Source of the DNA: Thraustochytrium sp. TN22
Lineage: Eukaryota; Sar; Bigyra; Thraustochytrida; Thraustochytriidae
Assembly: GCA_013306675.1 (NCBI GenBank)
Contig: JABLUY010000019.1
Span: 175,287 to 239,286, forward strand
Direction of reading: 5' to 3'
Length of the DNA: 64,000 bases
The position numbers and the translations under genes are program-made. A model generated the notes under the pieces. The model saw only the letters and a list, made by a program, of their open reading frames with translations. It was not told where the DNA came from and did not search any database. This document shows, one piece after another, positions 18,216 to 33,934 of the stretch. How positions within the stretch are numbered: position 1 is the first letter of the stretch; each line of letters begins with the position of its first letter.

Positions 18216-18713
18216 GCCGCTTCGCGCGAGCCAGCCAGCCAGCCAGCCAGCCGGCCGGCCGGGTGGGCGGGCGAGCGCGCGTGCGCGCGCGGGTCAGACC
18301 AACCGGCCGCGCGCGCGGCACCCCACCCCCCACTCGCGGCGACGGGCCGACGGCGGTCTGTCTGCCGCGTGGCGCCGCGCTCGCTGAGCCAGGGGGAAAG
18401 CGCGCGGCGGCGCCCCGCTCCCGCGGACGCGGGGGGCAAACGCGGAGGGAAAAACCCGCCCGCCGAGAAGGCGCGCGTCGCGGCGCAGAACTTGAACCTC
18501 GCCGCGGCGGCGCGGCGCGGCGCGGCGCGGCGAGGCGCGGCGCGGCGAGGCGCGCGGCGGTCGAGGCGGCGGCGGCCGCGCGGGCCCCGCCCCGCCCGGC
18601 CCCCAGCGCGGCGCGGCGGCGCTGGCGGCGACGCGGCGGGGGGCGGCGAGGCGGAGGCACCTGGAGAAGGTGGGCCTGTTCGCGCTGTACGCGCCGGCAC
18701 GGGAGGCGCGAGG
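18216..18713. other. 498-bp divergent GC-rich promoter
   Basis: Between two propeller-protein genes. It contains CCAGCCAG repeats (18226-18256) and an extended GGCGC(G) tract (18505-18560). The plus-strand frame through it is open to the next gene but is only Ala/Arg/Gly sequence. Confidence 0.6.
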
Positions 18714-20384
18714 ATGTCGAGCGCGGGCGGCGGCGCGGGCGGCGGCGGAGGCGGAGGCGGCGGAGGCGGAGGGCGGCGGCGGCAGCAGGATGGCGGCGCG
18801 CAGATGCTGCTGTCGGACGCCGGGTTCGTGGCCAAGCGCAAGCGAGGAGGCGCGCGCCCAGGCGTCAAGGCGCCCGTGACGAGCCCGCGCGCCGCGGCCA
18901 GCAAGCGCAAGCCGGGCGATGCGGAGGGCGCCGTCAAGATGCAGGAGCAGACGCGCGGGACATCCCGGGCGCCAGGGCTCAAGACGCAGACGCGGGCCGC
19001 GGAGGGCGCGAGCGCTCCCGCAGCCGACGCGGCCAGTGCCGCGGCGGCGGCGGCCGCGGCCTTGGCTGCGCTGCCCAAGGTGCCAAACGGGCCGCGCCGC
19101 GCGTCGCGCAGCGCGCCGCAGCGGAACCTGGCCGGCAAGCTGCAGCTGCGCGAACTCAGCGCGGCCGGGGCGGGCGCCTTCCGCGCGCGCGCCGCGCGAG
19201 AGCGCTTCCGCGGCATCCAGCCCGCCTGCATTCTGGACGCGCATGAGCCAGACACCGAGGACGTGAAGCTGTGCTTTCTGCGGCGACGGTCCAAGGTGGT
19301 GGAGATTGTGGCCGCGCACGAGCTGGTCTTTGGCCTTACACAGACTGGTATCTGCACGGCCTTCTCGCGCACCACGCGCAAGCGCGTGTGCTTCCTCAAC
19401 ACGGCGCCAGACGAGGTGGTGCGCAGCCTCTTTTACAACAAGTCCAACGACTCGCTCATCACCGTGTCCGTGTACCGCACGGACAACTACAGCTCGCTCA
19501 AGTGCCGGTCCACGCGGGTCGAGTACATCCGGGAGGGCAGACCCGAAAAGGGCTTCCCGCTCTTTGAGAGCGAGTCACTGCGCTGGCCGGGCTTTGTCGA
19601 GTTTGACGACGTCAACGGCAAGGTGCTCACCTATTCGGCCAAGGAGAAGGTGTACAAGATCTGGGACCTGGTCAACTACTCCCTGCTCTACGCCATCGAG
19701 GACCGCGACATTCAGGAGATTAAGATCTCGCCTGGCATCATGCTGCTCATTTACGCGCGTTCTGACTGCGGCGGCCACGTGCCGCTCAAGATCCTCTCCA
19801 TCGACAATGGCGAGACACTGCAGGCCTTTTCCCATGCCCTGCACCCGCACCGCAAGATCGACTTCATCGAGCAGTTCAACGAAAAGCTCCTTGTCAAGCA
19901 GGAGGAGGGCAACCTGCAGATTGTCGACGTGCGCACCGCAGCACGCCGCGAGGTACCTAGCACGGACTTCCTCACACCTACCGCCTTTATCTTTCTCTAC
20001 GAGTCCATGAGCTTCCTCACTTTTAAAGAGCGCTCCGTCGCGGTGTGGGACTTTCGCGGCGAGCTCGTGTCCCGCTTCGAAGACCACGTGCTCTGGCACC
20101 CGGACTGCAACACCAACAACATCTACATCTCCTCCGGCCAGGAACTCATCATCTCCTACTGCAAGAACGGCGACGCCGCCTTTGGCTCCATCAATGTCTC
20201 CGACATTCTCTCCGGCCGATGCATCGCCAAGATTCAGCCGCCGCCTGGCGCCTCCGCCGCCACGCGTCAGTCCTTTGAGCACGGTCTGGAGAACGTCACC
20301 GCACTCTACTTTAACGAGGACCGCAACGAGATCTACACGGGCAACCGCGCCGGCCAGATCACCATCTGGTCCAGCCTCGTCTGA
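18714..20384 (+). CDS. conserved WD40-like protein of plant/algal type
   Basis: 556 residues from the ATG at 18714, after which a Gly run (~4-20) and a disordered Ala/Lys-rich leader extend to ~165. From there the sequence is highly constrained: VKLCFLRRRSKVVEIVAAHE, FNTSPDEV-like VCFLNTAPDEVVRSLFYN, WPGFVEFDDVNGKVLTYSAK, KISPGIMLLIYARSD, KIDFIEQFNEKLLVKQE, VAVWDFRGELVSRFEDHVLW, HPDCNTNNIYISSGQELIIS and the last blade NEIYTGNRAGQITIWS. These match, as I recall them, a widely conserved but uncharacterised WD40-like family of plants and algae. The high conservation suggests a core nuclear or cytosolic role, but none can be named. The frame continues upstream to 17718 without an ATG-supported protein, so I reject that extension. 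Confidence 0.8.
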   Translation: MSSAGGGAGGGGGGGGGGGGRRRQQDGGAQMLLSDAGFVAKRKRGGARPGVKAPVTSPRAAASKRKPGDAEGAVKMQEQTRGTSRAPGLKTQTRAAEGASAPAADAASAAAAAAAALAALPKVPNGPRRASRSAPQRNLAGKLQLRELSAAGAGAFRARAARERFRGIQPACILDAHEPDTEDVKLCFLRRRSKVVEIVAAHELVFGLTQTGICTAFSRTTRKRVCFLNTAPDEVVRSLFYNKSNDSLITVSVYRTDNYSSLKCRSTRVEYIREGRPEKGFPLFESESLRWPGFVEFDDVNGKVLTYSAKEKVYKIWDLVNYSLLYAIEDRDIQEIKISPGIMLLIYARSDCGGHVPLKILSIDNGETLQAFSHALHPHRKIDFIEQFNEKLLVKQEEGNLQIVDVRTAARREVPSTDFLTPTAFIFLYESMSFLTFKERSVAVWDFRGELVSRFEDHVLWHPDCNTNNIYISSGQELIISYCKNGDAAFGSINVSDILSGRCIAKIQPPPGASAATRQSFEHGLENVTALYFNEDRNEIYTGNRAGQITIWSSLV

Positions 20385-21590: not shown

Positions 21591-22443
21591 CCTGGCGCGC
21601 CGCTCGCGTCTGCCGTCCCGCCGAGCCGCAACAAGAGAGCGCACACGAGCTCGTCTATTCGCTACTCGTCCATTCCGGGTCTGCGTCAGCTCCGGGTCGG
21701 CGGCCGCGGCCAGGCGGAAAACCTCCTCGCCGACGCACCTCTGTGGCAGCACGCGCGCGCGCGCCGCAGTGACGATGCTTCAAACTTGAGGGGCTCGGGC
21801 ATGAAGTTCGCGTGGCTGGTTGCCCTGACGCCACGATGGCCGCTTGTCTGTAGATCAGAGTGGATGGCGCTCGGCAGTGCTGTGGGCGACTGGAGCGGAC
21901 GCCAGCGGACAAGATGATGTTCTCTGCCAGCCACGAGGGCGCAGCGGATGCCCGGGAAGCCAGGAAAGCCGGGTACTGATGACTCTTGGTCTCGCAGGTA
22001 AACAACGTCAAGAGTCCGGAGGACCTCTACCGTATAAGTGCTGTTTGCAGCCGGCCTTGTAGGGTCTAGCTAGCTAGCTACTCTAGCAAGCTAGCTAGCT
22101 ACTAGAGAGGCCTCTAGCTAGCTAGAGCCGTTAATTAAAATCCGGAGGCTGACTGTGGGTCCGAGTTCGGGAGTCCAGGTACACGCAAGGTTCTCTGCTC
22201 TGTGCAAGCTGCCGCTTCGCCCTCGCGACCATGGACCCTGGCCGTGGCGAAGCTCGACACAACAGTCATGGTCCTCTCCAGTGTAGCGCCAACGCCGACA
22301 GGTGACAGCCTAGCAGCAGAGACAGTACAGTGCCGTGTAGCGCGTGGCAGCAGATCGAAAAGAGGCACCACGCCTTCGCTGTGAGCGGCGCGGCGCGCGG
22401 CGCGCGCACGTCTCACGCGCGTAGCGCGTGTCCAAACTCTGTC
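21591..22443. other. 5' flank of receptor copy 1, start of duplicated segment
   Basis: From about 21700 this sequence is closely repeated about 2.27 kb downstream (the stretch ending GACGATGCTT is at 21771-21780 and at 24041-24050). A CTAG-rich imperfect palindrome lies at 22066-22126. Indels between the two copies in the first part (around 21735, 21915, 22000) are 3 or 6 bp. No ATG-initiated gene was found. The sequence is probably promoter/5' UTR of the EGF-7TM genes. Confidence 0.55.
22066..22126. repeat. CTAG-rich imperfect palindrome
   Basis: Repeated GCTAGCTA blocks flank a central ACTAGAGAGGCCTCTAG core. The second duplicated segment retains only a short TCTAGCTAGCCG at the equivalent place (about 24333-24344), so the element expanded or contracted after duplication. 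Confidence 0.75.
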
Positions 22444-23595
22444 ATGTGCGAGGCGCACTGGCCCTCGACGACGCCGTGTGCGTGGGGCGGCACATGTAAC
22501 GAGACGCTTGGGCAATGCCAGTGCGAGGAAGGCTTCCGGATTGCCTTGGCCGTCTTCGGCAAAAAGGACACTTCGTGCGCCGTGCCAGACTGGCTCATGC
22601 TCGGCGTCACCTACGCTGGGCTCATCACAAGCACTGCAAACCTCATGCTTCGAGCATTCATGTTGTGGAGACGAGGCTACTTTACGCGAACGCGTCGCGA
22701 CAATCTCGTGGCAAGATCTCAAGAGGCTCGCCGTATCATCGCTTTCGGGGTGCTCAGTGATATCTTCTTCTGGCTTGGTAGCCTATATTGGTGCGTCCGG
22801 GGTGTTTCCAACTTCAGGTTTGCTGAAGATGTCGTCGGGACCGTGCTGCTTCAGGCCCCCATTCCGCCGTACTGGTACTGGTTTCATGCTAAGACTATCT
22901 TTGTCATGAAGTCGGTGGCAGAGGTGGACCGAGTCCGGTCAGAGCTCCTGGTCAAGTCGATCCGACGAGCCGAGCGCTACGTGAAGGCCGCCACGTATCT
23001 CACCTCGATCGTGCTCACCTTTGGCCTGCCTATCCTGTACGCGGTGCAACCTGCCTCACACTGGATAAAGCTTCACTTCGCCTGCTTTGGGGCGGTGGTT
23101 CTTTTTGCTGGGGTTGCTTCCTCATACCTCACCAGCGCGCTCCTCAAAAGCATCGACAGCAACAATGCCAACTTGTCGTCCGCCCCGAAGGCGATTCAAA
23201 TCCTTCGCCGGCGCGCAGTGCGAGTGCGCAGCTTAGCCCGCGTCATTGTTGGGCAAGTCGACCTGATGATGTGGCTCACGTGCGTTTGGCCATGGCTCTT
23301 CGACTTCGCGCCAGTCATCTTTAGCATTTTACACACCAATGGTTCGCTGGCGGTGATGATCTTCCAGGCGCTCACACCCAAGATAACGCTTCGCGATCCC
23401 GAACGACTGTCCCAAGCTGACATTCGACGGAAAGGCGGTCCCATTCCGGGAAACGGCACTTCGAGCAGAAGCACTGGCATCTCATCTACACCACGAGGTC
23501 CTGAGTTCACTGGCAAAGCGACGACTGCAGTATTCCCCGTCGAGAACATTGCTGCGGGCAAGGTTGCCTTGCTCGACGGGGGCGAGCAATCGTAG
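22444..23595 (+). CDS. EGF-like 7TM receptor-like protein, copy 1
   Basis: 383 residues from the ATG at 22444. An EGF-like module with six cysteines is immediately N-terminal (residues 2-46; spacing C-x8/9-C-x5-C-x6-C-x-C-xxGF...C, core GGTCNETLGQCQCEEGF), ending CAVPDW. Seven hydrophobic segments follow: ~50-73, ~98-118, ~130-155, ~183-203, ~212-236, ~275-297 and a short one ~305-318. Loops after segments 1, 3 and 5 are rich in Arg/Lys (RRGYFTRTRRDN, RSELLVKSIRRAERYVK, QILRRRAVRVRSLAR) and the others are not, which predicts N-out/C-in topology like a GPCR. No signal peptide is visible. The tail is Ser/Gly-rich with FPVENIAAGKVALLDGG. I know no named family with this layout. Copies 2-4 follow on the same strand. 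Confidence 0.8.
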   Translation: MCEAHWPSTTPCAWGGTCNETLGQCQCEEGFRIALAVFGKKDTSCAVPDWLMLGVTYAGLITSTANLMLRAFMLWRRGYFTRTRRDNLVARSQEARRIIAFGVLSDIFFWLGSLYWCVRGVSNFRFAEDVVGTVLLQAPIPPYWYWFHAKTIFVMKSVAEVDRVRSELLVKSIRRAERYVKAATYLTSIVLTFGLPILYAVQPASHWIKLHFACFGAVVLFAGVASSYLTSALLKSIDSNNANLSSAPKAIQILRRRAVRVRSLARVIVGQVDLMMWLTCVWPWLFDFAPVIFSILHTNGSLAVMIFQALTPKITLRDPERLSQADIRRKGGPIPGNGTSSRSTGISSTPRGPEFTGKATTAVFPVENIAAGKVALLDGGEQS

Positions 23596-24671
23596 TGGAT
23601 AGACTGCAAGCTTTGTTTTTTTTTTCGCATCAAGCCTGAGATTGTTGCAATCTCACTGCGGAGCCTGAGCTCAATAGAAAGTCACGAAGAGTAACTACGT
23701 GGAAAGCGTCGCTCATGGCACTTGCGGCAGGACTGACTACATCGTAAAAAGAGCCGTTCTAAAGACCCCCTCCGAGTCCAGCGTCCAGCGTCTTGGAGAA
23801 ATTTTTGCTGTCAGGCTCAATTACACGAGCAATGGGTACTTCGGGCCCCTAGCAGCAACGACCGGGTTGCAAAAGACAAGCGAGCAGAGCCCGCAAGCGC
23901 GGCACCTATCAAGTCGCGCAACCCTGTTCTTCCGCCTCACTTCCACCTCGTAGATAGCAAGCGACTCTGATCTCTCTCGCCGCGGCCAGGCGGAGAACCT
24001 CCTCGCACCTCTGTGGCAGCACGCGCGCGCGCGCCGCAGTGACGATGCTTCAAACTTGAGGGGCTCGGGCACGAAGTTCGCGTGGCTGGTTGCCCTGACG
24101 TCACGATGGCCGCTTGTCTGTAGATCAGCGTAGATGGCGCTCGGCAGTGCTGTGGGCGATTGCAGCGGACGCCAGCGGACAAGATGTTCTCTGCCAGCCA
24201 CGAGGGCGCAGCGGATGCCCGGGAAGCCAAGAAAGCCGGGTACGGATGACACTTGGTCTCGCAGGTAAACGTCAAGGGTCCGGAGGACCTCTACCGTGTA
24301 AGTGCTGTTTGCAGCCGGCCTTGTAGGATCATGGTCTAGCTAGCCGTTACAAAAAAAAACAAGAGAATCCGGAGTCTGACCGTGAGTCCGAGTCAAGGTA
24401 CACGCAAGGTTCTCTGCTCTGTGCAAGCTGCCGCTTCGCCCTCGCGACCACGGACCGTGACCGTGACGAAGCTCGGCACAACTGTCATGCCCTCCCCCCA
24501 GTGTAGCGCCAACGCCGACAGGTGACAGTCTTGAAAGCGCCACAGCGCCACAGTACAGTGCCTTGTAGCGCGTGGCAGCAGATCGAAAAGAGGCACCACG
24601 CCTTGGCTGTGAGCGGCGCGGCGCGCGGCGCGCGCACGTCTCACGCGCGTAGCGCGTGTCCAAACTCTGTC
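23596..24671. other. spacer between receptor copies 1 and 2, duplicated both sides
   Basis: The first ~370 bp (T-run, AAGAGTAACTACGTGGAAAG, AGCAAGCGACTCTGATCTCTCTC) reappear after copy 2 at about 25812-26200. From ~23970 on, the sequence repeats the 5' flank of copy 1. So the spacer is the junction of two duplicated units. No separate gene seen. Confidence 0.6.
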
Positions 24672-25811
24672 ATGTGCGAGGCGCACTGGCCCTCGACGAC
24701 GCCGTGTACGTGGGGCGGCACATGTAACGAGACGCTTGGACAATGCCAGTGCGAGGAAGGCTTCCGGATTGCCTTGGCCGTCCTCGGCGAGAAGGACACT
24801 TCGTGCGCCGTGCCAGACTGGCTCATGCTCGGCGTCACCTACGCTGGGCTCATCACAGGCACTGCAAACCTCATGCTTCGAGCATTCATGTTGCGGAGAC
24901 GAGGCTACTTTATGCGAACGCGTCGCGACAATCTCGTGGCAAGATCTCAAGAGGCTCGCCGTATCGTCGCTTTCGGGGTGCTCAGCGATATCTTCTTCTG
25001 GCTTGGTAGCCTATATTGGTGCGTCCGGGGCGTTTCCAACTTCAGGTTTGCTGAAGACGTCGTCGGGACCGTGCTGATTCAGGCCTCCATTCCGCCGTAC
25101 TGGTACTGGTTTCATGCTCAGATCATCTTTGTCATGAAGTCGGTCGCAGAGCTGGACCGAGTCCGGTCTGAGGTCCTGGTCAAGTCGATCCGACGAGCTG
25201 AGCGATACGTGATGACCGCCACGTATCTCACCTCAATCGTGCTCACCTTTGGCCTGCCTATCCTGTACGCGGTGCAACCCGCCGCACGCTGGATAAAGCT
25301 TCATTTCACCTGCTTTGGGGCCATGGTTCTTTTTGCTGGGATCGCTTCCTCGTACCTCACCAGCGCGCTCCTCCAAAGCATCGACAGCAACAATGCCAAC
25401 TTGTCGTCCGCCCCAAACGCGATCCAAATCCTTCGCCGACGCGCAGTACGACTGCGCAGCTTATCCCGCGCCATTGTTGGGCAAGTCGTCCCTATGATGT
25501 GGCTCACGTGCATTTGGCCATGGCTCTTCGACTTCGCGCCAGTCATCTTTAGCATGTTGCACACCAATGGTTCACTGGCGGTGATGATCTTCCAGGCGCT
25601 CACACCCAAGATAACGCTTCGCGATCCCGGACGACTGTCCCAAGCTGACATTCGACGGAAAGGCAGTCCCGGCGCTTCAGGCAGAGGCGCTGGCATCTCA
25701 TCTACTTCACGAGGTTCTGAGTTCACTGGCAAAGCGACGACTGCAGTATTCCCCGTCGAGAACATTGCTGCGGGCAAGGTCACCTTGCTCGACGGGGGCG
25801 AGGAATCGTAG
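24672..25811 (+). CDS. EGF-like 7TM receptor-like protein, copy 2
   Basis: 379 residues, very similar to copy 1 along its whole length: same MCEAHWPSTTPC start, all six EGF cysteines, same seven hydrophobic segments and positive inside loops. Differences are mostly conservative (e.g. CAW to CTW, FGKKD to LGEKD, QAPIPPYW to QASIPPYW, HAKTIF to HAQIIF). The main length difference is a few residues lost in the Ser/Gly tail (RKGSPGASGRGAG). The open frame upstream of the ATG has only a GTG start and differs between copies, which supports starting at MCE. Flanks are duplicated too, so this is a young tandem segmental duplicate. Intact and probably functional. Confidence 0.8.
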   Translation: MCEAHWPSTTPCTWGGTCNETLGQCQCEEGFRIALAVLGEKDTSCAVPDWLMLGVTYAGLITGTANLMLRAFMLRRRGYFMRTRRDNLVARSQEARRIVAFGVLSDIFFWLGSLYWCVRGVSNFRFAEDVVGTVLIQASIPPYWYWFHAQIIFVMKSVAELDRVRSEVLVKSIRRAERYVMTATYLTSIVLTFGLPILYAVQPAARWIKLHFTCFGAMVLFAGIASSYLTSALLQSIDSNNANLSSAPNAIQILRRRAVRLRSLSRAIVGQVVPMMWLTCIWPWLFDFAPVIFSMLHTNGSLAVMIFQALTPKITLRDPGRLSQADIRRKGSPGASGRGAGISSTSRGSEFTGKATTAVFPVENIAAGKVTLLDGGEES

Positions 25812-26596
25812 TGGATAGGTGGATGGCAAATTTTGTTTTCTTTCGCCTCAAGATTGTTCCAATCTCACTACGGAGACTGCGCGAAGAGTAACTACGTGGA
25901 AAGTTTCGCTCATGGCACTTGCAGCAGGATTGACATGGAGGGGTTCGGGAATTCATCGTAGAAAGAGCCGTTTCAAAGCCCCCCCTCCAAGTCCAGTGTC
26001 CAGCGTCAGGAATTTTTGCTGACAGGCTCAAATACACGAGCAACCGGTACTTCAGGTCCCTGGCAGCGGCAGCAACGACCGGGCTGCAAAAGACAAGCAA
26101 GCAGAGCCCGCAAGCGCGGCACCAATCAACTCGCGCAACCCCGTTCTTCCGCCTCGCTTCCACCTCGTCGATAGCAAGCGACTCTGATCTCTCTCCCCGC
26201 GGTGCCGATGTCGTCGTCCACGCGTGATTAGCTGGTGGGAGACAAAACAAGCCAGCCACTCGCTCTCGGTTGCCTGAAGGCTCGTCTACCGGGGAGCGCT
26301 TCATGTGGAGCCTACCGCCTTGAACCATAGAGGCGTTTATGTGAGCTTCCAGGAGCACAGTGAACTGTACGGTGTTGGTCCCTGACTTCTAAAAAATTAA
26401 AAAGCTTGGCTAGCCGTTTCGCAGGGAGACCGTACATTACATTGCCCTTTCATCCATGCAGGAATAGCCCGAAAGGCTCGCGGCTGGTGTCAGCTTGCTC
26501 GCACGGCGCAGAACGCGCTGCGGCGCAGGCGCGCCACGGTGCGGCACAAGACGGCGCGCGGCTAGGCGTGCGGCGCGACGCGCGGCGCAAGCCAGC
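25812..26596. other. spacer between receptor copies 2 and 3
   Basis: The first ~390 bp repeat the 3' flank of copy 1. After about 26200 the sequence is unique, with a short AT-rich patch (AAAAAATTAAAAAG, 26390-26403) upstream of copy 3. No gene recognised. Confidence 0.6.
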
Positions 26597-27742
26597 ATGT
26601 GCGAGGTTCGCTGGCCCTCCAGCAGCGCCTGCTCGTGGGGCGGCACATGCGACGAGACGATCGGCGCTTGCCAGTGCAATGACGGGTACCGTCTGGCCTT
26701 GGTGGTCTTCGGCGAGGCCGGCGCCAAGTGCATGGTTCCAGACTGGCTCCTTGTCGCCATCGTCTACCTCGGCTTGGTCTTATCAAGCATGAATCTGCTT
26801 CTTCGAGGGCACATGCTGGGGACGCGCAACTACCTCATCAGCGCTCGCCATGCTGCGACCCCGCATATCTTCATCCTTCAACGACGCTATATGGCGTGTG
26901 GCATCCTCACGGACATGATGTTGTGGCTCGGCAGCGCTTACATTTGCTTCAGGGGCGTTTCCAACTATGTCTTTCTTCAAGACCTTTTTGGTACAGTGCT
27001 TATTCAGCTGCCCGTTGTCTTCTTTTGGCCATACGCTCACTTCGTGATCATGTTCAGCGCCAAAGCAGTCGCCTCGCTGCAGCAAGTTCACACGGCATCG
27101 CTGGTGATGAATATCGCACGGGTGGAGCGATACTCGCGACTCTTCATTTGGGTTGGCGCAGGTGTGCTCTCTGTGTCACTTCCCGTTCTTTATGCGACAG
27201 TCGGTGCTCCAGTCTGCTTCACCGTGTATTTCTTCCTCTTCGGCACAATAGCCTTTGTTCTCTGCGCGAGTGCGGTGATCGTCGCTGACACGATCCTCAA
27301 GTCCATCAATGCAAGAGTCACGGAAAGAGCCGCACAGTCCCAAGACGTTGATCCCGAGCTTGAGCAGATGCGAAAGCGCACGGAGAAACTTCGACACCTC
27401 GCGATTGTTTTCACTCTGCAAGCACCCACAATGATGTGGCTCACCAGCGCGTGGCCGTGGCTCTGGGGCTGGATGCCAGCAATGTTTTTTCTTCTTCACA
27501 ACAACGGCGCCATGGGGATGATGTTTGCCCAGCAATTCACTCCAAAGGTCGCGTTGCATGGCGTCGGGAGTCCAGCCACTACCACAAAGATGTCCACGGA
27601 AGTCGGCTACAAAGTTCACTCAGTTGTTAGCCAGAGCTTCAAGAGAGTTCTGGAGCTGAGGCGATCTAGCACCAGCTTGCCGAAAGCAGGCGTCATCCCC
27701 GTCGACAATCTGGTAATGAACGACAACGTTCTGAAGCGCTAG
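26597..27742 (+). CDS. EGF-like 7TM receptor-like protein, copy 3
   Basis: 381 residues, an older paralogue. It again begins exactly at MCE (MCEVRWPSSSACSWGGTC) with all six cysteines and the MVPDW exit, then seven hydrophobic segments in the same positions (LLVAIVYLGLVLSSMNLLL, MMLWLGSAYICFRG, IQLPVVFFWPYAHFVIMF, LFIWVGAGVLSVSLPVLYA, FFLFGTIAFVLCASAVIVA, MMWLTSAWPWLWGWMPAMFF, GMMFAQQFTPKV). The segment MMWL-T-x-x-WPWL is shared by copies 1-3 and, with changes, by copy 4. Arg/Lys-rich loops after segments 1, 3 and 5 keep the N-out topology. The tail ends KAGVIPVDNLVMNDNVLKR, echoing VFPVENIA in copies 1 and 2. Synonymous positions are less G/C-rich than in neighbouring housekeeping genes. Confidence 0.8.
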   Translation: MCEVRWPSSSACSWGGTCDETIGACQCNDGYRLALVVFGEAGAKCMVPDWLLVAIVYLGLVLSSMNLLLRGHMLGTRNYLISARHAATPHIFILQRRYMACGILTDMMLWLGSAYICFRGVSNYVFLQDLFGTVLIQLPVVFFWPYAHFVIMFSAKAVASLQQVHTASLVMNIARVERYSRLFIWVGAGVLSVSLPVLYATVGAPVCFTVYFFLFGTIAFVLCASAVIVADTILKSINARVTERAAQSQDVDPELEQMRKRTEKLRHLAIVFTLQAPTMMWLTSAWPWLWGWMPAMFFLLHNNGAMGMMFAQQFTPKVALHGVGSPATTTKMSTEVGYKVHSVVSQSFKRVLELRRSSTSLPKAGVIPVDNLVMNDNVLKR

Positions 27743-28611
27743 TAGGAGCGCTCGAGCTTGCTCGCTGACGCATTTTCTATGTTTTTGATGCGGTTGCGAC
27801 AGCGTCCTCGTCTGAAGCGCAATTGTCTTTTTTGTCTGGCTGGAAATGCGACCGTGCGGGCAGACAAGCAACCATGCGCCCTCCTTCATCCGAGCGGTGG
27901 CAGCGCCTCTAACGTACTCGCCAGAGGCAAGTGCCTCCAGCGCCTCAACTAACAGTTTGTAACACCATCGGGTAGTTGTTTCTTACTAAGTTTTATGAAA
28001 AGGCCACCAAAAGCTGAGGTCATAAGCTGGGCGTTTGGCCCTGCCTCGCACGGTACCATGCAGCTTAGAGCGCCAACTTGCCGCCGAGTAGACTGAAGCC
28101 TTGACTCACTGGGATAGAGCCCTTGAGAGCTAGAGGTTCTCCTCGTAGATGCGATCTTCAACGTCCTCGCTCTCGTACTCTGCCGCCTTGGCCACGTGGA
28201 GACTAGTCCACGCGAGTTTGTACCGTCACCTTCCTCCTCGCTCATCGCCGCCGCCCCGCTGCTCTCCGCCATCGCGCCCGCGCGCGCCGCGCTGGTGGTT
28301 TGTATGGCCGGGGCCAATCGCGCCCGCGCGCGCCGCGCTGGTGGTCTGTATGGCCGGGGCCAATTTGAAACGATTTGGCCTGCACCGCTACGCGCAACCT
28401 AAAAAATTGGTCAAAAACGATCCTACCATACTATCTGCCGGAGTTGACGCGCGCGCGGCGTTGCGCGCCCTGGATGCGTGCTTGCGTCGTGGGCGTCGAC
28501 CGGACTGCATGCGCGAGAGCGCGGCGCACGCCACTCGCGTGAGCGTGTGCGCAATCGCATGTGCGAGCTCTACTCTCGCACTGCAACCTTGTGCATCATC
28601 CCATTCAAAGG
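27743..28611. other. spacer before receptor copy 4
   Basis: 869 bp without a recognised gene. It contains a 46-bp direct repeat (28271-28364) and an ATGTGCGAGCTC at 28559 that mimics the family start but is out of frame with the real module at 28612. Confidence 0.55.
28271..28364. repeat. 46-bp direct repeat, two copies
   Basis: Two adjacent copies of a unit starting ATCGCGCCCGCGCGCGCCGC and ending TATGGCCGGGGCCA, differing at a single position (GGTTTG vs GGTCTG). Confidence 0.9.
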
Positions 28612-29906
28612 ATGTGCGAGGTGCATTGGCCATCGACGACGGCCTGCTCGTATGGCGGCACCTGCAATGAGGCGCTGGGCGTGTGCCAGTGCGATGAAGG
28701 CTTCCGCGCTGCCGGGGCCATGTTTGGCGACAACAGGATTGACTGCTCTGTACCCGACTGGCTCCTCGAGGCATTCATGTACAGTGGTCTCGTACTCTCC
28801 TCAGTGGCTATCGTCCTGAGGGTCTATCTGCTCAAGAAGCGTGGCTACCTCGTTCCGCAGCGGCAAATTGCAAACCCTATGACGTATCGCAGCCTATGGC
28901 GCATCGCTGCCTATGGGATTGCAGGCGACATCGTCTTTTGTGTCACGAGCTTCTATCTTTGCGCTCGAGGGCCGCTCAACTTCGTCTATGTGGAGGACAT
29001 CGTAGGCACAGTCCTCATTCAGGCGTCACTCTTTCCCGGATGGTTTTGTGTGGTAAACACGATGCTCTACTACGCGGAGACCAACGCACAGATTGACCGG
29101 ATTCGATCCGCTCACCTGACGGCAACGCTTGAGAGCGTAAAACGATATGGGCGCCCTGCTGTGCTTTTCTGCGTTGGGACACTCTCCGTCGCGACCCCCT
29201 TCGTCTATGTCAGGCTGGGGCCGCCCTGGTGGATCATGGAGCACTTTCTAGCCTTTGCCGTGCTCTGTGGTGTAATCTGGGTTGGCATTTTGCGCACCGT
29301 CCGCGCGTTCGTGCGGAGCATCGATGAGTCTCTCCAAAGCGAGGTAACAAGCGAGAGCCTCTCTGAGGTTGCGAAACTACGTGCCAACCTCGTTCGGCAT
29401 CGTCGCCTCATTAAAACAGCACGACGTCGCAGATTTTCTTTACATCCCTGCTTACGTCCTGCTGGCCATGGCTCTGGGGTTGCGCATCGGCCATGTTTCT
29501 CACCATGTTCATCAACGGGCCCATGGCTTCGATCATCCAGCTAGCCATGCCCAAGATTGTCATCCTTCGACGGAAGAGTCAGGCGTCGGCGTCCATGCGC
29601 AGGAGGAGGCCGTCGACCACACCTGTAGCCAGCAGCCAGCTTCCCACCGCGGCTATGGCACATACTAAAAGGAGAGAGGTAGTCCCTGAGAGCGAAGGGA
29701 CCGGGTTGTCTGCCACTAACTGTGAGGCCCCGAGTGTCTTACTCACAGTTAGCTCCCCAAGTGTCTTGGCCAAAGCAATTGAGGCTGGGACCGGGTCGAA
29801 TGTCACCAACACCCCGAGTGTCTTTGCCAAAGCAATTGAGGCTGGGACCGGGTCGAATGTCACCAACGCCCCGAGTGTCTTTGCAACGGAAGAGGTCTGC
29901 GAATGA
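28612..29906 (+). pseudogene. EGF-like 7TM receptor-like copy 4, frameshifted
   Basis: Starts at MCEVHWPSTTACSYGGTC with all six cysteines and the SVPDW exit. Hydrophobic segments 1-5 are in one frame (to about 29425). The expected segment 6 (FFTSLLTSCWPWLWG) and segment 7 (FINGPMASIIQLAMPKIVI) then lie in another frame that runs to the stop at 29904-29906. The shift falls in AAAACAGCACGACGTCGCAG (29414-29433) and amounts to one base lost or two gained. In the original frame translation ends at 29544 with an unrelated Arg/Ser-rich tail lacking segments 6 and 7. The second-frame tail carries a 19-residue direct repeat. It is a recent pseudogene, a sequencing error or a truncated receptor; the lack of other damage favours the first two. 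No plausible intron spans the site. Confidence 0.7.
29761..29885 (+). repeat. 57-bp minisatellite, about 2.2 copies
   Basis: GTGTCTT[G/T]GCCAAAGC... recurs at 29761, 29818 and (partial) 29875, period 57 bp. In the frame of the copy-4 tail the unit is 19 residues (SVFAKAIEAGTGSNVTN..P). Copies differ at only about two positions, so the expansion is young. Confidence 0.9.
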
Positions 29907-30198
29907 AGGCTTGAGAAAGCATGCGAGCGTGCGAGCAAGCGAGCGAGTGAGCGAGGCAGCGAGGCACTCGTTGGCAACAAAAATCATGGGTGTGCAGTAG
30001 TACAATGGCTATTTTGATAGATCTCCTTCGGGCGCGATTCTTGGACTTGCACAGGCAGGTTGAGGCTTCTGGTAACCTTCTCGAATGTATAAAAGCAAGA
30101 GAAAGGATAGCCAACCCGGCTAGGGCTCAGCGAGCTGCAGCGATCACCACAACTCGAGTCCGACTTCGCATGTGATGTGCAGCTGGCTTGCGTGGAGG

Positions 30199-32412
30199 TC
30201 AGGCAAGCGGGCGGTCCCACTGCGTGACGGATCGCCCTTCGTGAAAGTAGTAGGGCTTGCCGGAGCCAGGGTCGACGAGACGGACCCAGCCGGGTGGCAA
30301 GGCATCTGGATTGGATTTGGGCGGGGGAGGAGGCGGCCGCGGCGAGCCCGCCGGCGAGCCCATGGCTGAGGAGCGCGAGGAGGCAACGCTTGAGGGCGAG
30401 AGGGACGCGGCTGGAGCCGTGGCAGGCATGGGGCGGCGCGCGAGCTGCGGACCGGCCGGGCGCGTCCCTGCGAGGGAGGCCGCGGAGGGGCCGCGGTAGG
30501 GCACGTCGCTGCCGGCCTGGAGCTCGTGGCGGTCCTCGCTGAAGACACCAGGGCACATGGCGAGCTTGTGGAGCCACTCGTTTTTGGTGAAATGGTCCGG
30601 GCAGACGAGCACCCAGCGCTCGCCGGATTTGCCGCGCACGGCGAAGGCGAGCGGGCCGTAGTCCGGCTCAGCGCCGTACGAGCGAAGCTGCAGCGTGGCC
30701 TCGTGGCGGTAGTACCCGCGTGCGAGCCACTCGGACTCGCGCCCGCAGACGAGGAGGTCGTTGAAGAGCCAAAAGAACCAGGTTTTGGCCTTCTTCTTCT
30801 CCATGCGCTCGAGCTTCCCATGGTGCAGGTAGAGGCGGCGCGGGTTCGCAAGCTCGAGCGCGGGCTGAAAGCTGGACTCGATACGGCGAACTTCCTGCTG
30901 ATTCTTGCGTGTGTCGAGCGCACGGCGCACGTAGTCCGCGGTGATACCAAGGAGCGTGAGCGCCTTGTCGATGTCGGGCGAGGACGGATGCGCCGGGTCT
31001 GTGCGCGCGCGCAGCGTGCGCAGCAGCTCAATGTACTCGTTGAGGCGATCGACCGGGCGGCGCATGAGGTCCGCCAGAGAGGCGACGCCAGCGCGCTGCG
31101 CCGCATCATCGGCGCTGCTGAAGCCGAGGCGCTCGCGGCGCATCTTGGCGATGGTGTCCTGAGCGTCCTGGAAACGTACAACATAGTCCGTGTAGGTCTC
31201 GAAGCGCGGCGCAATGGCGACGAAGTCGGCGGCCAGGCTCTGGTCCATCTCCATTTGGGCGAAGGCGCCCTCGAGCGAGGCGAGGAAGTCGACGTGCATC
31301 GCCGCAATCTCCTCAATGTTGCCGAAGAGCTCCTTGGCCTCCTCGGGCGATAGCGTCTTTTGCGAGAACCACGTCTCGCTCTGCTGCACCTGGCCGCCCC
31401 AGTGCGCCGGGTTCTGTAGCGGCTTGACGTAAAAGTCGAGCAGGTTCGAAAGGTCCAGCACGTAGCGGCGCTCCGACTCAACGATCTCTGACATGGCCTC
31501 GAAGCGCGGCACCTCCTCGGCCGGCAGGTCGCTCATGTCCCAGCCCGAGGAAGTCGGCGCCGCCGGGGGCGGCGGCGAGGGCGGCCGCGGCGAGCGCACG
31601 CGCCACGCGTCGACGTCCGCCTCCTCGTGGCCGTCCGCAAAACGCACGCGATAGCGGTCGGTGGCATCGTGGCCTGTGATGGTGGCCCGCTGCCACTGGT
31701 CGGCGCCGGACGCGGCGCGCACCTCGACCTCGGCACCGATGGGCAGCATGCGGGAGGTGTCGATGGGCGGCGGCGAGGGCGGCGAGGGCGGCGCCACCAC
31801 CTTCTCCTCTGACGTCAGCTCGTCAAAGGCCGCGGCCAGCTCCTCATCGAACTCGTTGCGGTACAAGCTCGGATCAAAGTCGGCGCCCGGCACGAAGTTG
31901 ATCTTCTCATGAGCGGCCAGCCGCACGGGCTCGCCGCCGTTGAGCGCGGCCAGCCGCTGCGCCTCGGCCACGAGCGCGCGCATGCCCTGCAGCCGCCGCA
32001 GCAGTCGGTTGACATGCTCGCGCAGCAGCTTCTTGCTGCGCGTGTCGCGCACCGACGGCACGGCGCGCAAGAAGCACGAGATCGCCGCCACGTAGTTGTC
32101 CACGGCGCTCGTCGCGTGCCGCTCCAGCAGCGCCGGGCTCACCTCCGCGGCCTCGTACACGCGCGTCGCCTTGTCGTCGGCCGCCGTGCCCAGCTCCGAC
32201 CGGACGAAGCCCTGGTTGATGGTCTCCCGCACATCGATCCCGCGCGCCTGCGACAGGTCGGCGCCCGCGCCCGCGCCGCCGCGCGCCGCCAGCATCCCGC
32301 CCGCGCGCCGCCCGCCCGCCGCCGCGCCGCCCGCCCGCTCCTTCTGGCTCTGCTGCCCCTGCCGCCGCTGCTGGTCGCGGACGCAGTCTCCGACTCGGCC
32401 CACCTCGAGCAT
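30199..32412 (-). CDS. MIT/Tudor-like/DH/PH/WW multidomain RhoGEF
   Basis: 737 residues from the first ATG of the frame (32412). An Arg/Gly/Ala-rich leader is followed at ~70-115 by a helical segment like a MIT domain (ERHATSAVDNYVAAISCFLRA). A Tudor/SH3-like barrel lies at ~225-275 (GAEVEVRAASGADQWQRATI, YRVRFADGHEEADV). The Dbl-homology domain spans ~300-500 (AMSEIVESERRYVLDLSNLL, core helix LMRRPVDRLNEYIELLRTL). The PH domain is at ~525-617 (RRLYLHHGKLERM, WFFWLFNDLLVCGR). A Pro/Ser-rich linker precedes a C-terminal WW domain (LPPGWVRLVDPGSGKPYYF). DH-PH pairs load GTP on Rho-family GTPases at membranes, the WW domain binds proline motifs and MIT domains bind ESCRT-III tails. DH, PH and WW calls are strong; MIT and Tudor are tentative. 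Confidence 0.85.
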   Translation of the reverse strand: MLEVGRVGDCVRDQQRRQGQQSQKERAGGAAAGGRRAGGMLAARGGAGAGADLSQARGIDVRETINQGFVRSELGTAADDKATRVYEAAEVSPALLERHATSAVDNYVAAISCFLRAVPSVRDTRSKKLLREHVNRLLRRLQGMRALVAEAQRLAALNGGEPVRLAAHEKINFVPGADFDPSLYRNEFDEELAAAFDELTSEEKVVAPPSPPSPPPIDTSRMLPIGAEVEVRAASGADQWQRATITGHDATDRYRVRFADGHEEADVDAWRVRSPRPPSPPPPAAPTSSGWDMSDLPAEEVPRFEAMSEIVESERRYVLDLSNLLDFYVKPLQNPAHWGGQVQQSETWFSQKTLSPEEAKELFGNIEEIAAMHVDFLASLEGAFAQMEMDQSLAADFVAIAPRFETYTDYVVRFQDAQDTIAKMRRERLGFSSADDAAQRAGVASLADLMRRPVDRLNEYIELLRTLRARTDPAHPSSPDIDKALTLLGITADYVRRALDTRKNQQEVRRIESSFQPALELANPRRLYLHHGKLERMEKKKAKTWFFWLFNDLLVCGRESEWLARGYYRHEATLQLRSYGAEPDYGPLAFAVRGKSGERWVLVCPDHFTKNEWLHKLAMCPGVFSEDRHELQAGSDVPYRGPSAASLAGTRPAGPQLARRPMPATAPAASLSPSSVASSRSSAMGSPAGSPRPPPPPPKSNPDALPPGWVRLVDPGSGKPYYFHEGRSVTQWDRPLA

Positions 32413-33934
32413 CGCGCCGCCGGTCACGGCAGCGCGCGCTGACGGGCCCGGCAGGCCGGCCGAGCCTCGTCTGGCTGTCGAGCCTGGGCGAGCGAGCCTT
32501 GCAGCGCCGCGAGGGCCGCGAGCTCGGATCGGTTGAGTGATTGATCGTTCGATCGATCGCCGCGGCCTCGGTCACGGCGGTGGCGGGTCTCGGGCGGGAT
32601 CCGGGTTCCGCCTTTCTGTCTGCCTGCCTGCCTGGCTTTTGCAGTGCCTGCTCCGAGTTCGGTCAGCCCGCCCTGTCCGAGTCGGCGAGTCCGAGCCAGC
32701 GAATCGTTCGGGACAGAGGCCGTCTAACTTGCGCATCGAGCCAGCGCGCGAATGCCACGAAAGCGGTGGGACAAAGCTTGATTCAACTGCGCTGCCTCAG
32801 TCTGCGCAGGTTGGCTGTCTGGTTGCTCATCATGGTGAGTCAAGGTCCGGCCACAGCGTGGTCCGAGTCCTCCCCAAGAGCACTTGGCCGGGCTCAGGCT
32901 TGGCTCTCTTGCTTTAGAATGCCTCGCATCGTGCGATGTGAGTGACGTGAGGTGACTGAGGTGAGCCCGAGGTGACGAGTCTTGCCGGTTCCACGGTGCC
33001 GCAGAAAAGCCGCCTCAAGGCCTGGCAGGCCTGCAGTGGCATCTGGGCCACGTGCAGTGATCATGACAGGCAACATCCGAGTCCTCAACAAGACACCGTG
33101 AAGGAGCGCACACACGTACTGGCCGCGCATGGCCGCAACTGGCGGCGCCGCCGCAAGCCGCCGCGACGCCCGCCCCGCGTCCCAGTCCCCATCCCAGACG
33201 CCAGACGAGATGTGTGTGCTCACGTGGCGCTAGCTAGAATCGCGAGACTTCGAGTTGGCTTGCCAGTCATCAGTGGCATCAGTGGTAGCACTGACAGCGC
33301 CGCGGAGGCACGGGCCCACTGGCGACGCCTGGCGACTGACATCCCAAAGTTTCGGTGCGTTTCGGTCTCCATCCCAATTGAGTCCCTTCGATGTGTTTGA
33401 CTGAGCCGCCTCCACCCCGCACCCGCCACAGTGCCAGTGGCGCGCGATGCACGCCTTCTACGCCCTTTGCCCCGCACCGCTCCACACCGCTTGGCAGGCG
33501 AGGCCGGCTTCCCCCTGACCGCGCGCGGCGCCGGGCGCTGCGGGCCCGCAGACGGAGGCACGCGCCGCGGAGCAGAAGCCGTCAGCTTGCGCAGCAGAGC
33601 TACAGCAGTAGTCGTTCCTGTTTTCGCGCGCCGCGCCGCGCCGCCTCCTCGCCACGCGCCGCGCTGCCGTGAGCGCCCCGCCGGCGCCGGCAGACAGCCA
33701 ACGACCGATCAATCCTCAGCGCGTCCGCCTCCTCGCCGCGCGCGCCCTGCCCGGTTTGCCCTGGCCTCTGTTGCTTGCGCAGCAGCCTGTCGCTCGCAGC
33801 GTGTGCGGTCGCCCAACGTGATCGTCGTGTACAAGTCGAGGTGGAGCGAGCTTGCGAGCGAGGCGCGCGCAGCGTACAAGCCCGAGGCGGCGTCGCTCGC
33901 GTACTGAGCCGAAAGGGGCGTTCCTAAGGAGATC
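32413..33934. other. 1.5-kb spacer upstream of RhoGEF and glutaredoxin genes
   Basis: Divergent spacer. It holds GATCGATCGATCG near 32546-32560, a short CCTG run near 32623-32636 and otherwise unique sequence. Frames here look like compositional artefacts; I see no exon with convincing protein character. Confidence 0.55.

Follow-up and report, generated by a model that had tools for sequence, protein, structure and literature searches.

A divergent family of EGF-headed, probably seven-helix surface proteins in Thraustochytrium sp. TN22

Introduction

What kind of protein is encoded by four similar genes, here named A to D, that lie one behind the other in the genome of Thraustochytrium sp. 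TN22? They are located on a stretch of 64,000 nucleotides (contig JABLUY010000019.1, positions 175,287 to 239,286), hereafter the window, and each combines a six-cysteine module resembling epidermal growth factor (EGF) with a hydrophobic part. Thraustochytrids are marine decomposers used for the production of docosahexaenoic acid (DHA), and to our knowledge little is known about how they sense their surroundings. No earlier description of an EGF-headed seven-transmembrane (7TM) architecture in thraustochytrids was found in the titles and abstract openings of the open-licence literature. The results presented below indicate that A-D are part of a divergent protein family, unnamed in the libraries searched, whose members are minimal, EGF-headed and probably seven-helix proteins of the cell surface. 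We favour, with a probability of about 55%, the explanation that this family of ~20 loci consists of short EGF-headed cell-surface receptors built on a seven-helix bundle, which most likely signal through G proteins.

Four genes with an EGF-like module directly in front of a hydrophobic part

The features of the cluster are given below with their positions in the window and, in brackets, the evidence for each.

22444..23595, + strand: gene A, 383 residues, with an EGF-like module, about seven transmembrane (TM) segments and a C-terminal tail (open frame, conserved ATG, genomic relatives)
22444..22578, + strand: EGF-like module of A, six-cysteine spacing 9-5-6-1-17 (cysteine spacing; EGF_2 at 15.2 bits, under the cut-off)
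22579..23394, + strand: membrane part of A, probable TM1 to TM7, end approximate (hydropathy, loop charge, low-confidence model)
24672..25811, + strand: gene B, 379 residues, a recent duplicate of A, 90% identical (open frame, alignment, ratio of non-synonymous to synonymous rates, dN/dS, of 0.48)
26597..27742, + strand: gene C, 381 residues, an older paralogue (open frame, alignment; EGF_2 at 22.8 bits in the genome search)
28612..29418, + strand: first frame of gene D, EGF-like module and TM1 to TM5, aligned with the family (alignment, frame comparison)
29427..29909, + strand: second frame of gene D, TM6-TM7-like part and short-repeat tail, in a different frame from the first (tblastn)
21734..26202, no strand: tandem duplication with a unit of ~2.2 kb, covering A, B and flanks (direct repeats)

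The four genes are arranged head to tail on the + strand and all open with Met-Cys-Glu. Their alignment, in which D is included only up to its frame change, contains 65 invariant columns; all six module cysteines are among these, as is the VPDWL motif leading into the first helix. Between the start ATG and the preceding stop no further in-frame ATG is present in A-D, and DNA similarity among the genes begins one base 5′ of the ATG. We therefore consider the conserved Met-Cys-Glu ATG to be the real start. A separate upstream signal-peptide exon was rejected on the same two grounds and because, by eye, the upstream regions show no common splice acceptor.

The window contains 82 open frames with a length of 250 codons or more; the EGF-type cysteine pattern is present in five of them, and seven have at least five hydrophobic segments. 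Exactly four, namely A-D, display the pattern followed by hydrophobic segments, and the pattern did not arise within the first 60 residues of any of 4000 residue-shuffled protein versions. Thus, the order of EGF-like module and TM segments is not due to chance, and A-D are real, related genes with the order of parts given above. The original prediction of four same-strand paralogues, each with the module at its extreme N-terminus followed by about seven segments, agrees with these results, except that gene D is frameshifted (see below).

Residue 45 is the sixth cysteine (Cys6) of the module, about five residues ahead of the first helix, which begins near residue 51. When A-D were analysed by hmmscan, EGF_2 scored 15.2-20.0 bits, in all four cases under the cut-off of 22.1; in the genome search genes C (22.8 bits) and D (23.7 bits) were over it and A (18.0) and B (18.4) under it. 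For any single protein the EGF call is weak. The module was also studied in a set of 21 proteins, composed of 19 fetched family members and the proteins C16 and C179 (see below). With E values up to 1 admitted, EGF_2 matched 20 of them (the best at 9.3e-7), the gap between Cys5 and Cys6 was 17 residues in 17 proteins and 15 in the other four, and the cysteine spacing was retained across very divergent members.

Duplication, selection and the frame change in gene D

Direct repeats spaced by 2216-2270 connect A and B; their ungapped blocks are 93-98% identical, and the gapped flanks show 82% and 79% identity. Judging from these repeats, A and B arose by a recent tandem duplication of ~2.2 kb, flanks included. 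Genes C and D, with 38% and 36% identity to A, respectively, are both old paralogues. The synonymous distance (dS) between A and B is 0.098, with 39 non-synonymous and 26 synonymous changes. Their dN/dS of 0.48 is made up of values of 0.41 for the EGF part, 0.41 for the membrane part and 1.17 for the tail, which alone is relaxed. Five of the six pairs of A-D gave computable dN/dS values, ranging from 0.24 to 0.48, and dS was saturated for the pair C/D. By these ratios, purifying selection is shown to act between A and B.

Near position 29418 gene D departs from the family frame; the tblastn matches of A, B and C to its TM6-TM7 region are in frame 3. A short GT-AG stretch at the frame change could, by eye, be taken for an intron, but its removal would delete coding sequence that is conserved in A-C; a frameshift, real or introduced by assembly, is therefore preferred. 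Gene D is either a recent pseudogene or the product of an assembly error. The tail frame of D contains short, SVFAKAIEAGTGSNVTN-like tandem repeats (window 29700-29890).

About 20 related loci in the genome

The 37.9-Mb assembly of 453 contigs that contains the window was searched with A, C217a, C74, C414 and C407m as queries. In addition to A-D, 16 loci were linked to the family, which brings the total to ~20: C217 (three tandem genes), C404:25388, C74, C73, C310 (two), C246, C222 (two), C181, C414, C440 and C407 (two). The second C310 copy, known from its search row only, carries three in-frame TGA codons. Five contigs carry 13 of the 20 loci, in groups of 2-4. Local expansion with divergence, as had been proposed, is apparent in the tandem pair A/B and the older C and D; it is not, however, confined to the cluster, as shown by the ~20 loci genome-wide.

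Profile comparisons between groups were made on membrane parts from which the EGF part had been removed. A-D were linked to C217/C404 at E 1.1e-11, and C217/C404 to the main group of a second branch (7 sequences) at E 6.8e-6 over 239 columns; this main group was linked to C414/C440 at E 1e-27 and to C407 at E 6.9e-7. Comparison of the first branch (8 sequences) with the second (11 sequences) gave E 1.8e-7. Six control comparisons, in which two pyrophosphatase pieces and a transporter-like window protein were each tested against both branches, gave E 0.18-0.68. A tree of 19 sequences separated the two branches at 100/100.

Proteins C16 and C179 are EGF-headed and have multiple TM segments, but they were rejected as members, their membrane parts not being linked to the family by profile comparison. 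C429 is known from a search row only and was left out of the 20 loci. Six regions taken from the genome EGF_2 list of 84 matches (C374, C1, C343, C66, C70 and C453) have other architectures, and no family relatives were confirmed in viral contigs or in bacterial and archaeal contigs.

Some further features of these proteins and their neighbours were observed. L056:1743-3077 (+) encodes a multi-TM protein that is EGF-headed and weakly matches 7tm_7; a relative lies at C429:11710-12519 (search row only). Four of the 21 proteins, encoded at L044:5123-6598 (+), L044:1386-2648 (-), L046:2157-3365 (+) and L049:1563-2885 (+), end with an acidic stretch followed by Tyr-Val (for example DDDDYV), perhaps a sorting or PDZ-type signal. 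Adjoining the C217 cluster is a frame of 1129 residues (L009:4140-7529 (-)) that, by eye, looks similar to leucine-rich repeats, a GTPase and a TIR-like end.

Helix number, topology and fold of the membrane part

Helices were placed by simple hydropathy segmentation; seven is a reading of the profiles and not a measured count. Seven segments were found in A, eight in B, eight in C and five in D (first frame only); some of these were placed in the tail or in the EGF module, and TM3 of A was missed. At the middle setting, the set of 21 proteins gave seven segments in 7 cases, eight in 9, nine in 2, six in 1 and five in 2, and one of the two proteins with five segments is the first frame of D. 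Many of the surplus segments are located in signal-peptide-like starts, in the EGF module or in the tail. The number of Lys plus Arg residues alternates from loop to loop (2, 9, 2, 7, 2, 6, 0 and 9 in B, counted from the N-terminus), such that the first, third and fifth loops and the tail are basic. Seven helices, with the N-terminus outside and the C-terminus inside, is the reading that appears most consistent with these data. In three of the 21 proteins (both C222 proteins and C246) the module is preceded by a hydrophobic, signal-peptide-like start. On the basis of the loop charges and these starts we place the EGF-like module outside, and we infer that the family is located at the cell surface.

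Pfam lists were complete to E 1 for the window proteins and were also complete for ten relatives; the TM parts of 11 second-branch members were scanned to E 10, and the scan of the 21 proteins covers the best 25 of 33 families. No Pfam family scored over its cut-off for the membrane part of the window proteins, the ten relatives or the 11 TM parts. In the complete lists for A-D and the ten relatives there was neither GAIN/GPS nor a GPCR family, a sub-threshold 7tm_7 match in one relative apart; 7tm_2 was likewise not among the matches of the 11 TM parts at E up to 10. Matches to 7tm_7 were found in none of the window proteins and, among the matches listed, in one of the 21 proteins (C179), under the cut-off. 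Sequence searches of the PDB with two membrane profiles produced no rows and six weak rows, respectively (best E 0.21), and when the EGF part was included the rows below E 0.01 fell in that part. Neither of the two membrane alignments (11 and 8 sequences) has a His that is invariant or nearly so. An AlphaFold model was of low confidence (predicted local distance difference test, pLDDT, of 51), and structure comparison with it returned G-protein-coupled receptors (GPCRs) in 47 of 50 rows.

Together these results are in agreement with the N-out/C-in topology that had been deduced from basic loops 1, 3 and 5, with the reported lack of a GAIN/GPS region, and with the expectation that no transporter or enzyme family would match above the cut-off, either in the Pfam lists or in PDB searches with the membrane profiles. 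The proposed GPCR-like bundle is favoured by the ranking of mostly GPCRs obtained with the low-confidence model, but it received no GPCR profile match, and the comparison with class C GPCRs described below was negative.

Receptors and G proteins in the same genome

The genome encodes ~12 near-full-length G-alpha loci (11 single rows and one split over two rows within one frame) and two more partial ones. Class C GPCRs are represented by 37 loci over the cut-off, out of 38 rows, and several are arranged in tandem (for example C437 with five and C222 with four). PMC6050695 reports that thraustochytrids are enriched in the G-alpha domain and in three domains of family 3 GPCRs.

Locus L070:1-1149 (-) contains, within one frame, EGF_Teneurin (24.8 bits, cut-off 24.3) directly before 7tm_3 (44.5 bits, cut-off 33.5), demonstrating that EGF-on-7TM receptors exist in this genome beside the A-D family; the last cysteine gap of its EGF module is eight. 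In five of the six fetched class C loci (L064, L065, L067, L068 and L069) a juxtamembrane module with a similar cysteine framework is present, whose last gap is 16-18. Pfam detected no EGF match in the two of these five that were scanned, and the likeness is thus one of cysteine spacing only. Two of the loci, L064:1-2421 (+) and L067:1375-3777 (-), encode class C GPCRs with a Cache-like ectodomain (sCache_2 at 29.8 bits, over the cut-off, in L067 and at 17.8 bits, under it, in L064) and the EGF-like cysteine pattern before 7tm_3. This order of parts is mGlyR-like and occurs here outside animals; in the data set described in PMC12716839, Cache/EGF modules were detected only in metazoans.

The preferred explanation and its alternatives

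The family is probably an undescribed, divergent and GPCR-like 7TM receptor family, and a GPCR-like bundle, probably that of a G-protein-coupled receptor, is the best supported but unproven reading. In the proposed mechanism, the whole extracellular N-terminus would consist of one disulfide-knit EGF-like module, whose last loop is fixed and unusually long. In most members the first helix would act as a signal anchor that exports the module, a task that may be taken over by the signal-peptide-like segment in the three distant members that have one. The module would be placed directly on the seven-helix bundle, with the basic loops and the tail in the cytoplasm, and it would most likely bind an extracellular cue or partner, or else cap the bundle in the manner of the juxtamembrane EGF-like linker of class C receptors such as GPR158. 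The bundle most likely signals to certain members of the organism's large set of heterotrimeric G proteins, and tandem duplication with divergence would fit a role in chemosensing or surface recognition. A bolder version, according to which the proteins form an undescribed eukaryotic class of seven-helix receptors outside every known GPCR family, their single EGF module being exported by the first helix, is tentative, and we would stop short of giving it even odds.

Several results weigh against the explanation that we favour. In the comparison with the low-confidence model, GPCRs score level with a microbial rhodopsin, and the model does not allow a GPCR to be told apart from other seven-helix bundles. 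According to the complete Pfam lists, no GPCR profile matches the window proteins, and 7tm_3 is absent from the lists of the window proteins, the ten relatives and the 11 TM parts. Class C membership was rejected by sequence: when profiles were compared with those of seven class C GPCRs from this genome, the best E was 0.007, for a short match that was not colinear. The reach of this comparison is limited, since L070, itself a 7tm_3 protein, matched L066 alone at only 0.0043; against the other six class C members together it reached E 1.4e-4. As to the unity of the family, A-D alone gave only E 0.034-0.074 with the three second-branch groups, and C217/C404 gave E 0.097 with C414/C440 and 0.13 with C407. 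Because these cross-branch comparisons are weak, the link between the branches rests on that of C217/C404 with the main group.

Among the alternatives, the most specific considers the proteins to be class C (glutamate-family) GPCRs in which the large ligand-binding domain was lost, the juxtamembrane cysteine module was kept and the sequence diverged past recognition. It narrows the explanation preferred here, and we regard it as unlikely; class C ancestry is the most attractive candidate for a specific origin, which the sequence does not show. The 37 class C loci, the shared cysteine framework in five of the six that were fetched, and the union of EGF module and 7tm_3 in L070 argue for it, as does a Pro-Lys that closes the last helix in A, C and D, reminiscent of the Pro-Lys with which TM7 of class C receptors ends (present in L064-L070). 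This dipeptide was not seen there in C217/C404 or in second-branch members, however, and the lack of 7tm_3 matches and the profile comparison mentioned above also count against a class C identity. A seven-helix transporter, channel or membrane enzyme carrying an EGF-like cap, for instance a CREST-type hydrolase, we judge to be quite unlikely. CREST hydrolases require a conserved His, and neither membrane alignment has an invariant one; moreover, no such family reaches the cut-off in the Pfam lists, the predicted extracellular loops are short, and the predicted cytoplasmic tail is long.

Ion channels of the insect chemoreceptor type (7tm_7) occur in several protists, and the EGF-headed C179 matches 7tm_7 at E 3.3e-4. 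Kinship of the family with such channels is nevertheless very improbable. The match amounts to 20.5 bits against a cut-off of 26.6 and is, among the matches listed, the sole one in the 21 proteins; no link to the family was obtained for the membrane part of C179; and the N-terminus is predicted to be outside here, whereas it is inside in insect chemoreceptors. Hardly any weight can be given to the view that the cluster is the decaying, non-functional remnant of a gene family. Although the frameshift in D, the TGA codons in the second C310 copy and the surplus of non-synonymous changes between A and B would fit such decay, genes A, B and C have unbroken frames of 379-383 codons, dN/dS between A and B is below one in all parts but the tail, the cysteine spacing is held in very divergent members, and the frameshift in D could be an assembly error.

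Comparison with known EGF-bearing seven-helix proteins

Like the EGF-TM7 adhesion GPCRs (CD97/EMR2), members of the family would have an EGF module outside and seven helices, but they possess one such module instead of several and no GAIN/GPS. Assignment to the adhesion GPCRs (class B2) was rejected for this last reason, as well as for the lack of room between Cys6 and the first helix and of a 7tm_2 match. In TMEM8/PGAP6 of the CREST superfamily an EGF-like domain also adjoins a seven-helix bundle; in contrast to these proteins, the family has no invariant His in its membrane part, and the window proteins have no such Pfam match.

GPR158, as described in PMC8611064, contains an EGF-like linker between its extracellular domain and the 7TM bundle. 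The A-D family resembles class C GPCRs of this GPR158/mGlyR type, in which Cache or PAS, an EGF-like linker and the 7TM part follow each other (PMC8611064, PMC12716839), in that the EGF-like module sits directly on the bundle. It differs in that Cache/PAS or Venus-flytrap domains are lacking and the module is the entire N-terminus, and in that the window proteins show no detectable 7tm_3 similarity. As in class C GPCRs, a juxtamembrane cysteine module is present, with a last gap of 17 or 15 versus 16-18, a likeness in count and spacing only. New GPCR families named RSF, Hi-GOLD, GPCR-TKL/K and GPRch1-3 were described from choanoflagellates in PMC12716839. These are, similarly, lineage-specific 7TM families from protist genomes; they belong to a different lineage, and the comparison is by description only, not by sequence.

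If the preferred explanation is true, the compact family would provide a minimal model of EGF modules and seven-helix bundles working jointly outside animals. The proteins would be practical to express, as they have ~380 residues and lack large accessory domains. The family would also give a further candidate class of receptors to a lineage for which PMC6050695 reports enrichment of G proteins and of domains from class C GPCRs.

Other observations

The region around the cluster (window 22001-30000) is the most AT-rich of the window, with a G+C content of 0.57-0.59 versus 0.60-0.75 in the other 2-kb bins. It is flanked by genes for a DUF7899 protein (618 bits; 18708-20381, + strand) and for a protein with RhoGEF and WW (30202-32427, - strand). 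Elsewhere, in keeping with a thraustochytrid origin, the genome encodes an omega-3 PfaA-type polyunsaturated fatty acid (PUFA) synthase (2539.7 bits) in one frame of 3044 codons, beside which a synthase-like frame of 2083 codons is located on the opposite strand.

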